Shown here: piece by piece, positions 22,217 through 34,632 of the stretch | How the letters are laid out: each line of letters starts with the position of its first letter | Numbering within the stretch: position 1 is the stretch's first letter | Source of the DNA: Desulfuromusa sp. | GTDB lineage: Bacteria; Desulfobacterota; Desulfuromonadia; Desulfuromonadales; Geopsychrobacteraceae | Assembly (NCBI GenBank): GCA_029932345.1 | Contig: JAOZQF010000002.1 | Location: 1-34,632 of the forward strand | Reading direction: 5' to 3' | Length of the DNA: 34,632 nucleotides | Position numbers and translations under genes: made by a program | Notes under the pieces: model-generated | Told to the model about the DNA's origin: nothing | Database searches by the model: none | The model's input: only the letters and a program-made list of their open reading frames with translations

Positions 22217-22729
22217 TTACTTCGGTTCTTCCTTGAGAATAGTGAATATCTGCCCGAGTGAGAATCCCCTCCGTTGAAAAAAACCGACGACACGGCGTTT
22301 CTCCCGATCCTCTGCAGTCAGATAATTAAAGGTTGGAAAACGGCGCAGCAACTGATTACGGAGGATATCGTCGGTAGAAAATTCAGCTTCTGCGGTTTCT
22401 AGAGCCCGGTCAACGGTTGTCCCGTCAATTCCCCGGCGCCGCAGATCAAATCTGATTTTGCTGCCAACGCCCCGCCCGGTACGCATCAACGAACGAGCTC
22501 GTTCGGTGGCATAGCGGTTGTCATCCAGATAATTATATTCGTGACATTTTGCTACAGCAGAATCTATCGCAGAGCGAGAAAAACCGAATTGCTCCAACTT
22601 CTGGCGCAGTTCGGTTTCACTCCGGTCTCGCCGGGAGAGTAATCGCAAGGCGGCGGAAAATGCTTTCTTAGCCTTGCGGGTATCACTAGTGTCACTAGAA
22701 TCGTTCGACTTCGACCTGTCCATCGCCAT
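22217..22729 (-). CDS. recX: RecX regulatory protein
   Basis: About 170 residues, close to E. coli RecX (166). RecX binds RecA filaments and limits their activity. Tandem three-helix repeats are visible: AALRLLSRRDRSETELRQKL, then YNYLDDNRYATERARSLM and GVGSKIRFDLRRRGI, and a third around REKRRVVGFFQRRGFSLGQIFTIL. The track start (22870) reads far into pilT. The ATG at 22729 has AAGGA at usable spacing; ATGs at 22741 and 22723 remain possible. In every case the gene starts inside the end of pilT. pilT lies between recX and recA, so RecX probably still comes from the same transcript as RecA. Confidence 0.88.
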   Translation of the reverse strand: MAMDRSKSNDSSDTSDTRKAKKAFSAALRLLSRRDRSETELRQKLEQFGFSRSAIDSAVAKCHEYNYLDDNRYATERARSLMRTGRGVGSKIRFDLRRRGIDGTTVDRALETAEAEFSTDDILRNQLLRRFPTFNYLTAEDREKRRVVGFFQRRGFSLGQIFTILKEEPK

Positions 22730-23876
22730 CGAGTCCTTCATCTTCCTTTGCCTGTTTTTCCTCAGCTTGACCCCGTTCAAAATCACTCCAGGAGGCATCG
22801 GAGGAAGAATCAATACCTGATGACTTGAGTTTAAAGTCATCAGGATTGGAACTCTGTCGAACCGCTTCATCGTAGCTGATAATTTTCCTTTTCACCAGAT
22901 CCATCAGGGCCTGATCGAAGCTCTGCATACCATACGTCGTGTAGCCATTAGAAATAGCCTCTTTCAGATGAACTGTTCTGTCCTCATCATCGATCAATTC
23001 ACGAACCCGCCCCGTTGAGATCATCACCTCAACCGCAGCAACCCGACCCTTTCCTCCAGCCCGGGGAATCAACCGCTGTGAGATGACCCCTTTCAGAACA
23101 TTGGAGAGCTGCAAACGGACGTGACGTTGCTGGTGAGGGGGAAACATGGAGATAACCCGTGAGATCGTTTCCGGAGCATCATTTGTGTGGAGCGTTGAAA
23201 GAACCAGGTGCCCCGTTTCGGCAGCAGCAAGAGCGGTCTCTGCTGTTTCCAGATCACGCATTTCACCAACCATAATAACATCAGGATCTTGACGCATGGC
23301 ACTTTTTAAGGCCGGAGCAAAGCCGATCGTATCAAAACCGACTTCACGCTGATTAATAATACACTTGCGATCCCGATGCAGATACTCAATCGGGTCTTCA
23401 ATCGTTACCAAATGAGCAGTCCGTCGACTGTTGATGTAGTCAACCATCGCAGCCAGCGTCGTTGATTTTCCCGTCCCCGTTGCCCCGGTCACAAGCACCA
23501 GTCCACGGGGCTCTTCGGCAATCTTTTTCAGCACCTGTGGCATCAACAGATCATCCAGAGTTGCAACTTTAAAAGGGATCACCCGAAAAACGGCAGAAAC
23601 CGATCCGCGCTGCATAAAAATATTGGCTCTAAAACGTCCCAACCCGGGAACACCATAGGCCAGGTCAACCTCTTTTAACTCCTCAAATTTTTTATGTTGA
23701 TGATCACTCATAATCGATTCACACATACTACGCACTTCGTCAGCCGTCAACCTGGGAGCTTTTGGCAGTGGACGAAGGGCACCATCAACACGAAAAACTG
23801 GCGGCAAACCCGCTTTCAAATGGATATCCGAGGTTTTTGATTTAAGGGCCATGCCGAGAATATCATTTAAATTCAT
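22695..23876 (-). CDS. pilT: PilT/PilU-type twitching-motility retraction ATPase
   Basis: A 393-residue hexameric ATPase of the type II/IV secretion family that drives type IV pilus retraction at the cytoplasmic base. It has an N-terminal PAS-like domain (DIHLKAGLPPVFRVDG), Walker A GATGTGKSTT, Asp box TIEDPIEY, Walker B VIMVGEMRD and the His box HLVLSTLHTNDAPETISR. The canonical PilT motif AIRNLIRE is replaced by a divergent STGRVRELIDD, and about 40 extra acidic residues (SSGIDSSSDASW... GQVEVERF) follow the core. It may therefore be a PilT paralogue rather than the main retraction motor. It lies 42 bases after recA and overlaps recX. Confidence 0.92.
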   Translation of the reverse strand: MNLNDILGMALKSKTSDIHLKAGLPPVFRVDGALRPLPKAPRLTADEVRSMCESIMSDHQHKKFEELKEVDLAYGVPGLGRFRANIFMQRGSVSAVFRVIPFKVATLDDLLMPQVLKKIAEEPRGLVLVTGATGTGKSTTLAAMVDYINSRRTAHLVTIEDPIEYLHRDRKCIINQREVGFDTIGFAPALKSAMRQDPDVIMVGEMRDLETAETALAAAETGHLVLSTLHTNDAPETISRVISMFPPHQQRHVRLQLSNVLKGVISQRLIPRAGGKGRVAAVEVMISTGRVRELIDDEDRTVHLKEAISNGYTTYGMQSFDQALMDLVKRKIISYDEAVRQSSNPDDFKLKSSGIDSSSDASWSDFERGQAEEKQAKEDEGLDGDGQVEVERF

Positions 23877-31730: not shown

Positions 31731-33623
31731 TTATTTCTTCTTCTTAAACTTACTGAAGAGCCCCTTTGACGGAGGACCCTGTTCGCGACGCAGATTCATC
31801 AAGCGCAATTCACGCAACGCTTCAGTACAATCCGGATTTGCCTGTACTGCCATTTCGAAAGATTTTTCTGCCTGGCGCTCTTTCCCCAGGGAGAGATAAA
31901 CATGAGCAAGGTAGAGATGAGTCAGGTCAAAGCCAGGATTAATCTCTCGAGATGCCAACAGCACCTCCATTGCCCGGTTCTGAATCTCAGGCTTCTTCGG
32001 CGCTGACTTGAATAACGCCCAGGCAAAAAAAGCCATGTATTCAGACTCTTCCGGACTCAGCTCGATTGCTCTTTGCAACGACTTAGCCGCCGCACTGAAA
32101 CGGCGCACCTTCAAAAGGGCTCGCCCTTCCTGATAGGCCCCTTCGGCCTCAATGATTTTATTGATATCTATTGATTTTTTGGGACCATTGACCAACTCGT
32201 CCAGGTATCCAGCACATGAATCTTCATCACTAAGAACCGTATATGCTTGCGTGATATATTGAAACATTTCATTGATTTTATTACTCATCTCCGTTGAAAG
32301 GCCACTACCGAGGAAACGATCAGGGTGATATTCTTTAGCCAGTTGATAGTATGCTCTTCGAGCATCACCAGAGCGGAACTGTCGTTCCAATCCCAGTGTT
32401 TCAAAATAATCACAAGACATAATCCGTTGATAGTCATCGAGAATTTTGTGCCGTAGATGCTCATCAATAATCTCAGGTTCGCCCTCTCCTGAAAGATCTT
32501 CGGTCGCAATTGGGTCTGGATCAACGCTCGATTCCAACATTTCAGAGATCATCAATGCCGCCAGCACTTTCTGGACCTCACGTCGTGCCAACGGATGTTG
32601 CTCCAGAATCTGATTAAGGGTTTTCACCCCCAAACAGCTCTTGAATACCGTCCTTCCCCGCTTGCTTAACTCAATATCCTGAAAACGATACAGAGGATTA
32701 CTTGCCTGTTTCAGATAATCGTCACTAAAAGGATAGAGGAACTCATCCAGTTGTGTTGGAGTCCAGTAACGATCAATCCCCTCCTTAATAAGAGCCGCTG
32801 GGGTCAGTTCGATTCTGGTAATATTCTGTTTGAAATCTTTTACGGGAACAAATTGACAGGTTCCACTCCGCCAGACAAAGCTTGAAAGGAGCTTGTCTGT
32901 GACCTGACGAACCAATGCGGTCTGTACCTCCTGAGGAGTCAACAAACCCATCTCAATCAGGACAGTCCCTTGTAATCGCCCACTTTCCTTACTTTTTTCA
33001 ACCGATTTATCGCAATCGATCTGAGTTATAACCCCATCCGCAACCAGCGTTCGGCCCAAACACTCACTGAGGACATTAGATCGGGTAAAAATCGGATAAC
33101 CCTCTTTTATATAAACAATTTTTTTTGCTGCTCCCCGGGTTAAGTGTAATAGTCCGGTCGCTTTCTGCCGATAGAGTTGCTGTAGTTGCAAAGGAATTGT
33201 GTAATCTGAAATGGACTGAACTTCTGAATCGGTCTCTTGCTGATTTTCATCCGGAGAGAAAATCCGTTCCATCAACTTCTGCAAATCCTCACCAGTGAAG
33301 GGTTTGAGGAGAAAATCATCCGCTCCATATTCGTCTTTTGCTGCGGCAACCTGTTCCGGGCTATGAAAATCTGCAGTGATCATAACCACCGGAAGATCCG
33401 TGGTATTATCATGTTTGCGCAATGCCCGACAAATATTTGGTCCAGAAATTTCCGGCATATTAATATCAACCAAAGCTAGATGAAACTCTTCAGTCAACAA
33501 CTTCCGCAAACCAATGGCACCACGATCAGCTACTTGAACCTGAAACCCAGCAGCCGATAAAGCCTGTTGTAAAAAATCACAAAGGTCACGGTCATCATCG
33601 ATAATTAAAATATTTTTGCTCAT
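31731..33623 (-). CDS. Receiver - PATAN (DUF4388) - J domain - TPR fusion protein
   Basis: A 630-residue soluble protein. Residues 1-120 form an intact receiver: Asp10-12, phospho-acceptor Asp53 in LALVDINMPE, Thr83 and Lys107 in LKPF. About 145-275 match the PATAN/DUF4388 module (GLLHLTRGAAKKIVYIKEGYP... VLIEMGLLTPQEVQ). About 400-465 are a J domain (DYFETLGLERQFRS, HPD in KEYHPDRF, TQAYTVLSDED), the part that stimulates DnaK ATPase. From about 485 to 610 there are TPR-like repeats (AYQEGRALLKVRRFSAAAKSLQRAIEL). A KFKKKK tail ends it. It may recruit DnaK to a signalling or motility complex; that is inference. GAGGGA precedes the ATG. It is followed upstream by glnE on the same strand. Confidence 0.9.
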   Translation of the reverse strand: MSKNILIIDDDRDLCDFLQQALSAAGFQVQVADRGAIGLRKLLTEEFHLALVDINMPEISGPNICRALRKHDNTTDLPVVMITADFHSPEQVAAAKDEYGADDFLLKPFTGEDLQKLMERIFSPDENQQETDSEVQSISDYTIPLQLQQLYRQKATGLLHLTRGAAKKIVYIKEGYPIFTRSNVLSECLGRTLVADGVITQIDCDKSVEKSKESGRLQGTVLIEMGLLTPQEVQTALVRQVTDKLLSSFVWRSGTCQFVPVKDFKQNITRIELTPAALIKEGIDRYWTPTQLDEFLYPFSDDYLKQASNPLYRFQDIELSKRGRTVFKSCLGVKTLNQILEQHPLARREVQKVLAALMISEMLESSVDPDPIATEDLSGEGEPEIIDEHLRHKILDDYQRIMSCDYFETLGLERQFRSGDARRAYYQLAKEYHPDRFLGSGLSTEMSNKINEMFQYITQAYTVLSDEDSCAGYLDELVNGPKKSIDINKIIEAEGAYQEGRALLKVRRFSAAAKSLQRAIELSPEESEYMAFFAWALFKSAPKKPEIQNRAMEVLLASREINPGFDLTHLYLAHVYLSLGKERQAEKSFEMAVQANPDCTEALRELRLMNLRREQGPPSKGLFSKFKKKK

Positions 33624-33649: not shown

Positions 33650-34632
33650 TTACGGATTGAGATATTTTTCAAGAAGTTCACGAATCCCTTCAGTCACCAA
33701 CTGATATTCTTTAAGGAATTCTCGTTCTACCTGATCTCCCCTGCCGGTATAACCAAGGCTGAGAGCGGCCTTCCTGAAACCCTTGTTATGAGCAGAAAGC
33801 TCATTGATCGACTGATCATACAAAAGTCTCAATTTATTTTCCAACCGACGGAGAAATTTATAACCGTTGATTAATAAATCAGCGTCATTCTGCACTAAAA
33901 TATGTTTTTCTGCCATAGATTTGAGTAAATCTACCGTATTTTGTGTGCGTAATGACTCAAACCTGCCGGCATGCAACAACTGCAGGTATTGGGTGATAAA
34001 CTCCACATCAACCATTCCACCACGACCTGTTTTGATATTAAAACGGTCATCCCGTTCTCGGCCGCTTTCCTCTTCCATCCGTTTTCGTAACCGATAGATT
34101 TCTCCCTGTAAATTGACCGGAACCGGCCGCATAAAAGCCAGCTGGGAAGTTATCCTCTGTAGTTGGTCAATAAACTCGGTTGCCCCACACACCACCCGAG
34201 CTTTAGTCATGGCCTGCCGCTCCCAGGGTTGAGCCGATTCGTGATGATATCGCTGAAACGCAGCTAAACTGGTGACCAGTGGTCCCTGATTGCCTGACGG
34301 TCGCAACCGGGTATCAATTTTATAAACCGACCCCTCGCGAGTCACCAGGGTGAGAATGGTAATAATTCTTTGTGCCAATTTGGCAAAATATTCACTATTG
34401 CTGAGCGACCGGAAACGTTTAGAATCGGTTGTTAAAATCGGTCGTGTTTCCCCCTCTTCTTCATAAATAAAAATAATGTCCAAATCTGAATGGTAGTTCA
34501 GCTCGAGACCACCCAATTTCCCCATGGCAATGATGGCAAAAGCGGTTTCCTGAACCTCTCCGTCCTCACCCTTTGCGAACGGGGCACCAAAGCGGACCGC
34601 CAGTTCCTGTCTGGACATTTTCCACGCCTGCT
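33650..34632 (-). CDS. glnE: Glutamate-ammonia-ligase adenylyltransferase, C-terminal part, cut by the window edge
   Basis: The frame is open to the right edge, so the ATG at 34618 in the track is internal and about two thirds of the gene lies outside. The visible 327 residues are the C-terminal adenylyltransferase unit, which adds AMP to glutamine synthetase. The nucleotidyltransferase core is GKLGGLELNYHSDLDIIFIY, with RLRPSGNQGPLV, a later acidic site GRGGMVDVEFITQYLQL and the terminal region YTGRGDQVEREFLKEYQLV. The bifunctional enzyme controls nitrogen assimilation together with PII; the N-terminal deadenylylase domain is not visible. The gene ends 27 bases before the receiver-J-TPR gene. 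Confidence 0.95.
   Translation of the reverse strand, partial: QAWKMSRQELAVRFGAPFAKGEDGEVQETAFAIIAMGKLGGLELNYHSDLDIIFIYEEEGETRPILTTDSKRFRSLSNSEYFAKLAQRIITILTLVTREGSVYKIDTRLRPSGNQGPLVTSLAAFQRYHHESAQPWERQAMTKARVVCGATEFIDQLQRITSQLAFMRPVPVNLQGEIYRLRKRMEEESGRERDDRFNIKTGRGGMVDVEFITQYLQLLHAGRFESLRTQNTVDLLKSMAEKHILVQNDADLLINGYKFLRRLENKLRLLYDQSINELSAHNKGFRKAALSLGYTGRGDQVEREFLKEYQLVTEGIRELLEKYLNP

Follow-up and report, generated by a model that had tools for sequence, protein, structure and literature searches.

A receiver-PATAN protein with a J domain and TPRs is conserved in the Desulfuromonadales and has a sister clade without the HPD motif

Can a two-component receiver direct a chaperone? J proteins determine where Hsp70 works, and one under the control of a receiver would connect environmental sensing directly to the targeting of chaperones; we found no such protein described in bacteria in the open-access literature that we searched. 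The question is raised by a gene from Desulfuromusa sp. that lies in the 34,632-nucleotide stretch of DNA that we analyzed (the window) and whose product joins a receiver and a PATAN domain to a DnaJ-type J domain and TPR repeats. A preliminary description of this gene had proposed that phosphorylation of the receiver could control the recruitment of DnaK. It gave neither the strand nor the glnE neighbor, and did not mention a MshEN-like insert in PATAN, a winged-helix-like middle segment, or the C-terminal tail. What is new here is the description of the family: its breadth, its HPD-less sister clade, the homology between the PATAN insert and MshEN, and the resemblance of the tail to that of MinD.

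The reading frame occupies exactly positions 31731-33623 of the window on the minus strand (ATG at 33623, stop codon at 31731-31733), and the plus strand across 31731-33623 has no long reading frame. The predicted protein has 630 amino acids and comprises, in order, the receiver, PATAN, a winged-helix-like segment, the J domain, the TPR region, and a basic amphipathic tail; the coding coordinates given below for these parts are all on the minus strand. Translation and a Pfam domain search bore out the coordinates, the domain order, the receiver's catalytic residues, and the HPD tripeptide of the preliminary description: the matches to Response_reg, DnaJ, DUF4388 (which we take to be Pfam's name for PATAN), and TPR_1/TPR_2 were all above the gathering cut-offs. 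Scans for promoters and terminators gave counts no higher than expected from shuffles. Conservation was assessed with an order-level alignment of 57 sequences and with a wider set of 59 sequences, in which identity falls to about 27% and 38 positions are invariant throughout.

Structure prediction, which the preliminary description had proposed as a check, was informative about the domains but not about how they are arranged. In the full-length AlphaFold2 model (mean pLDDT of 85), the domains are well defined one by one, but the pTM is just 0.44, so their relative placement is undefined and no coupling between the receiver and the J domain is predicted. When the whole model was compared to known structures with Foldseek, receivers dominated the matches and nothing informative about the architecture was found.

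The receiver (residues 5-117, positions 33273..33611; PF00072, E = 1e-23) has the complete signature: the acidic pair D9/D10, the phospho-acceptor Asp53 (codon at 33465..33467), T83, and K107-P108. Among the 57 order-level sequences, D9 is kept in 56 and D53 in 54 (it is changed in two), T83 is found in 54 with serine in the other three, and K107 is found in 55, with arginine instead in one; each receiver residue is retained in at least 94% of these homologues. No kinase gene adjoins the gene for the receiver-PATAN-J-TPR protein.

The J domain (residues 405-473, positions 32205..32411) was matched by PF00226 with E = 5.3e-12 and a score of 46.1 bits (the cut-off is 27.8), and a search of the genome placed it identically. 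Its HPD tripeptide (residues 433-435, positions 32319..32327) is invariant, in 57/57 order-level sequences and 59/59 of the wider set, and is also kept in three relatives that lack the receiver (L127, L169, and L170). In DnaJ, the HPD is essential, and R22, K26, R27, K48, and K51 position the protein on DnaK (PMC8215388). Of these five basic residues, the window protein keeps R22 alone; the others correspond to Y426, Q427, Q455, and T458. Across the 59 sequences, the equivalents of R22, Y25, and R36 of DnaJ are kept in 58, 56, and 55 members, respectively, while the position of K26 is tyrosine in 48 and the position of R27, glutamine in the window protein, is arginine or lysine in 36. Judged from its residues, the domain's catalytic signature is intact and much of its docking charge is missing. 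It is plausible that the J domain works; since most of the docking residues are replaced, the binding of DnaK by the window protein may be weak or different. The host genome encodes one full-length DnaK (on contig C71) and several J proteins. It also has a 260-amino-acid frame (C155:13053-13718) whose match to the DnaK profile (306 bits) covers the C-terminal part alone.

PATAN (residues 138-285, positions 32769..33212) was matched by PF14332 with E = 2.3e-11 and 44.2 bits (the curated cut-off is 25), and DUF4388 was matched in 41/41 homologues. PATAN and the segment that follows it were modeled as one compact unit, with a pLDDT of 91.6 and a pTM of 0.86. That middle segment (residues 289-366, positions 32526..32759) looks like a helix-turn-helix in the model and has weak matches to helix-turn-helix domains, in some of the 41 members only and 0.0012 at best; its resemblance to a winged helix is a weak similarity only.

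The helical insert of PATAN (the "alpha-clip") is present, with residues 188-250 helical in the models, and its first part (residues 188-240, positions 32904..33062) matches MshEN proteins by profile. When a profile of PATAN and the middle segment was compared to the PDB with hmmsearch, PilF (5.5e-16), MshE (6.6e-9), and PilB (7.4e-7) were matched over the insert. The MshEN domain consists of two 24-residue motifs separated by five residues (PMC5013675), and the insert has this layout, with motifs at 188-211 and 217-240 and a spacer at 212-216. Foldseek with PATAN and the middle segment gave nothing with E under 0.001. The insert was aligned to MshE (5htl_B) with a probability of 1.00 and an rmsd of 0.8 Å over 55 columns, but with E = 0.28; we accepted the Foldseek matches to the N-terminal domains of MshE and PilB (E of about 0.2 to 0.6) only once the sequence profile search agreed. 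The insert is homologous to the MshEN (T2SSE_N) domain of type IV pilus motors, and this homology offers a possible reason for the encounter between PATAN regulators and PilB.

We also considered whether the insert binds c-di-GMP, as MshEN does. C188 and L217 replace the arginine of the two RLG motifs, S211 replaces the first glutamine, and Q218 stands where MshEN has Leu39; position 188 is cysteine or phenylalanine in 58 of the 59 homologues. The insert also failed a relaxed form of the motif test that accepts R, K, P, or N at the first position. Because both motif arginines and the first glutamine are gone, binding of c-di-GMP by the insert is unlikely, and we rejected this idea.

The TPR region (residues 487-615, positions 31779..32165) has seven helices, as judged from two Pfam repeats (TPR_1/TPR_2), the model, and the conserved columns, and it closes with a highly conserved helix, ALRELRLxNLRR. 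The C-terminal tail that follows (residues 616-630, positions 31734..31778, ending in SKGLFSKFKKKK) has a pLDDT below 50 in the AlphaFold2 model and a basic amphipathic motif like that of MinD. The strict form of this motif is found in 40/59 family members, in 23/23 members of the sister clade described below, and in 0/396 neighboring proteins; the pattern was drawn up after viewing the family, so the contrast between 40/59 and 0/396 is descriptive and not a test. The tail of MinD, its membrane-targeting sequence, is EEEKKGFLKRLFGG, as read from E. coli; the window protein has KGLFSKFKKKK, and EKKGLFKRIFG of the sister clade is close to MinD. Given this resemblance, a peripheral membrane location is likely.

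The preliminary description had called the fusion unusual. It is not: at E = 1e-30 or better, 73 of the 136 genomes of the order, or about half, hold the gene, one copy each, mostly full length and in a syntenic position. Named holders include Desulfuromusa kysingii, Malonomonas rubra, Pelovirga terrestris, and Geothermobacter hydrogeniphilus; the host genome (1.94 Mb in 235 contigs) also has one copy. A wider search, with a profile of the portion C-terminal to the receiver (A2), found relatives in the Myxococcota and elsewhere in the phylum, in classes other than that of the window. Beyond the order, some of these relatives have a receiver (L126, L128, L129, L171, L172, and L174-L177), and the three named above do not. 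Instead of being unique or rare, the architecture belongs to a common, conserved, single-copy family. A few copies are interrupted: three have one in-frame stop (G084:C95, G046:C14, and G060:C47) and might be pseudogenes or assembly errors, and two family members (G043:C16 and L131) are broken into several frames, probably by frameshifts.

The preliminary description would have set its idea aside if the architecture proved common and already described. It is common, but we found no description of it in open-access papers: there were none on PATAN with DnaJ and no surveys of J proteins with receivers, and a search on DUF4388 gave only an irrelevant match. Within that literature, the family is apparently unstudied. 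The rarity of the fusion falls away from the earlier interpretation and the motifs stand. Their reality and strong conservation make it sensible to hypothesize that phosphorylation of the receiver is linked to the recruitment of DnaK.

A further family in the class, likewise single-copy, bears on this hypothesis. Its members share the J fold, the TPRs, and an intact receiver with the window protein, and their PATAN-like region is diverged, but the histidine of the HPD is absent from 23/23 of them, with GPD/GPE, SPE, or TPE-type sequences instead. When the J-TPR region was used to build a tree with the HPD masked, the HPD-less members grouped together with full support (100/100, 24 rows), and two changes of the HPD state suffice in all. 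The second change is in L178, a phylum-level receiver-PATAN-J-TPR homologue on a long branch, which has apparently lost the HPD independently. Among the genomes of the order, about 21 have both forms, 19 have the HPD-less form alone, and about 52 have the HPD form alone, including the window's whole family (f1), as counted from two separate lists of family members. We considered whether the two clades form an obligatory pair, like Pam18 and Pam16, and rejected this as a general rule: f1 has the HPD form only, and the Geobacter-like family f24 has the HPD-less form only. The two clades, which co-reside in some genomes and are separate in others, are a natural experiment: they are related and share the architecture and intact receivers, but the HPD is always kept in one and always lost in the other. 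The comparison shows that the HPD is maintained by selection in the window's clade. At the same time, the sister clade is a warning that the J fold can apparently serve without DnaK.

The surroundings of the HPD-less genes also recur. Six loci have enough flanking sequence, and in four of them the gene lies behind a gene that looks, by eye, like mltG; these four loci (L165, L167, L168, and L183) are from several families, and the HPD-less gene directly follows the mltG-like gene (YceG endolytic transglycosylase). In another locus, an HPD-less family member is followed, about 1.5 kb further downstream, by an Hsp70-like gene (L184:4887-6001).

Our preferred reading, which we hold tentatively, is that the window protein is a membrane-associated class C J protein that is switched by phosphorylation and recruits DnaK to a target selected by PATAN and the TPRs, perhaps the pilus motor. 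A histidine kinase would phosphorylate Asp53, and the resulting change in domain packing would uncover the J domain or the target site. Binding of the specific target would fall to the TPRs and to PATAN with its MshEN-like insert, the MinD-like tail would keep the protein at the membrane, and the HPD-bearing J domain would bring the host's DnaK to the target and trigger ATP hydrolysis. The target would most likely be a type IV pilus motor or a polarity-complex protein, because PilB is a binding partner of PATAN regulators in Synechocystis (PMC10519157, PMC7690835, PMC9090330) and because one of the host's four PATAN genes (on contig C19, 606 amino acids) is 9 bp from a PilT/PilU-type ATPase gene, at L216:3143-6039. 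In Myxococcus, PATAN proteins are found together with SgmX, a pilus regulator (PMC11580455). Another of the host's PATAN genes, on contig C93, encodes a receiver-PATAN protein and adjoins genes for a histidine kinase and a roadblock-type protein (named by eye from their sequences). If the preferred reading is true, then two-component systems gain direct command of a chaperone and can direct DnaK to a chosen target.

Several observations count against this reading: the replaced docking residues, the HPD-less sister clade, the low pTM of the full-length model, the near-universal presence of PilB, and the conserved neighbors, which are gatB, mtnA, and glnE and include no pilus genes. Co-occurrence with PilB was uninformative, as 274 of the 277 genomes of the class have a match, 230 of them over the curated cut-off, whether or not the gene is present.

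The main rival is that the protein regulates motility or polarity as PixG and PixE do, through its receiver and PATAN, with the J domain and TPRs as a protein-binding scaffold and no use of DnaK. The sister clade, which retains a receiver, a PATAN-like region, the TPRs, and the J fold but has lost the HPD histidine, fits this explanation, as do the replacement of most of the docking residues and the action of PATAN-receiver proteins on PilB without any J domain. However, a pure scaffold would not need the HPD, which is kept in all 59 members of the window's clade and in the receiver-less cousins. The sister clade shows that the HPD can be lost when it is not needed, and the masked tree requires only two changes. 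We consider the scaffold explanation unlikely, though it deserves weight.

A broader proposal covers both clades: an unstudied family of membrane-tethered regulators in which phosphorylation places DnaK on the pilus motor or on another PATAN client, with the HPD-less clade, often behind mltG, as the chaperone-free counterpart. We think it quite unlikely that all of this is correct.

The neighborhood suggests another role. The 3' part of glnE (33650..34618, minus strand), cut by the end of the window, lies 26 bp upstream of the gene, and in 51/51 loci of the order that have an upstream gene, this gene is glnE, on the same strand, at distances of -52 to 64 bp (median, -3 bp). Given this apparent translational coupling, the protein might be a chaperone adaptor for GlnE, with DnaK helping to fold, assemble, or switch GlnE or glutamine synthetase in response to nitrogen signals. 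But mtnA and gatB are kept upstream of glnE in most loci, so that this may be an ordinary housekeeping operon, and the divergent homologues beyond the order (L127-L129) adjoin an ilvE-type gene instead. The linkage to glnE is real, whereas a connection in function is no more than a possibility, because these genes together resemble a housekeeping operon; we regard the adaptor explanation as improbable. About 8 kb from the gene, the window also contains a gene for a PilT-type twitching ATPase (22695-23876, minus strand), whose end is overlapped by a recX-like gene and which is preceded by recA.

That the protein is degenerate, its domains relics without a coordinated function, is very improbable: a few homologues deviate (R for K107 in one, D53 changed in two of 57) and the copies in some genomes (G084, G046, and G060) are interrupted, but the protein is conserved at full length over many families, with its 38 invariant positions, a fixed synteny, and one copy per genome.

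Finally, we compared the protein to known systems. Like the class C J-domain proteins DjlA, HscB, and DNAJC3/P58IPK, it combines an HPD-bearing J domain with unrelated targeting domains, and DNAJC3 also unites TPRs with a J domain (PDB 2y4t was matched). None of these proteins has a receiver or PATAN, and in the window protein the basic residues that dock on DnaK are mostly replaced. The sister clade resembles Pam16, a type IV pseudo-J protein, in keeping the J fold while having lost the HPD (PMC13254874); the window protein differs from such pseudo-J proteins in that its HPD is present. Compared to MinD, the likeness is confined to the short tail and could be convergent; there is no MinD-type ATPase here. 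The PATAN insert is like the MshEN (T2SSE_N) domain of PilB, PilF, and MshE in sequence and in its 24-5-24 layout, but it is without the arginine of both RLG motifs and the glutamine of the first motif. The protein also resembles the cyanobacterial PATAN-receiver regulators PatA, PixG, PixE, and LsiR, which have the same PATAN with its helical insert and a CheY-like receiver. The output of PixE and PixG is protein-protein contact, as shown with the pilus motor PilB. In the window protein, in contrast to these regulators, the receiver is N-terminal, and PATAN is followed by the J domain, the TPRs, and the basic tail.
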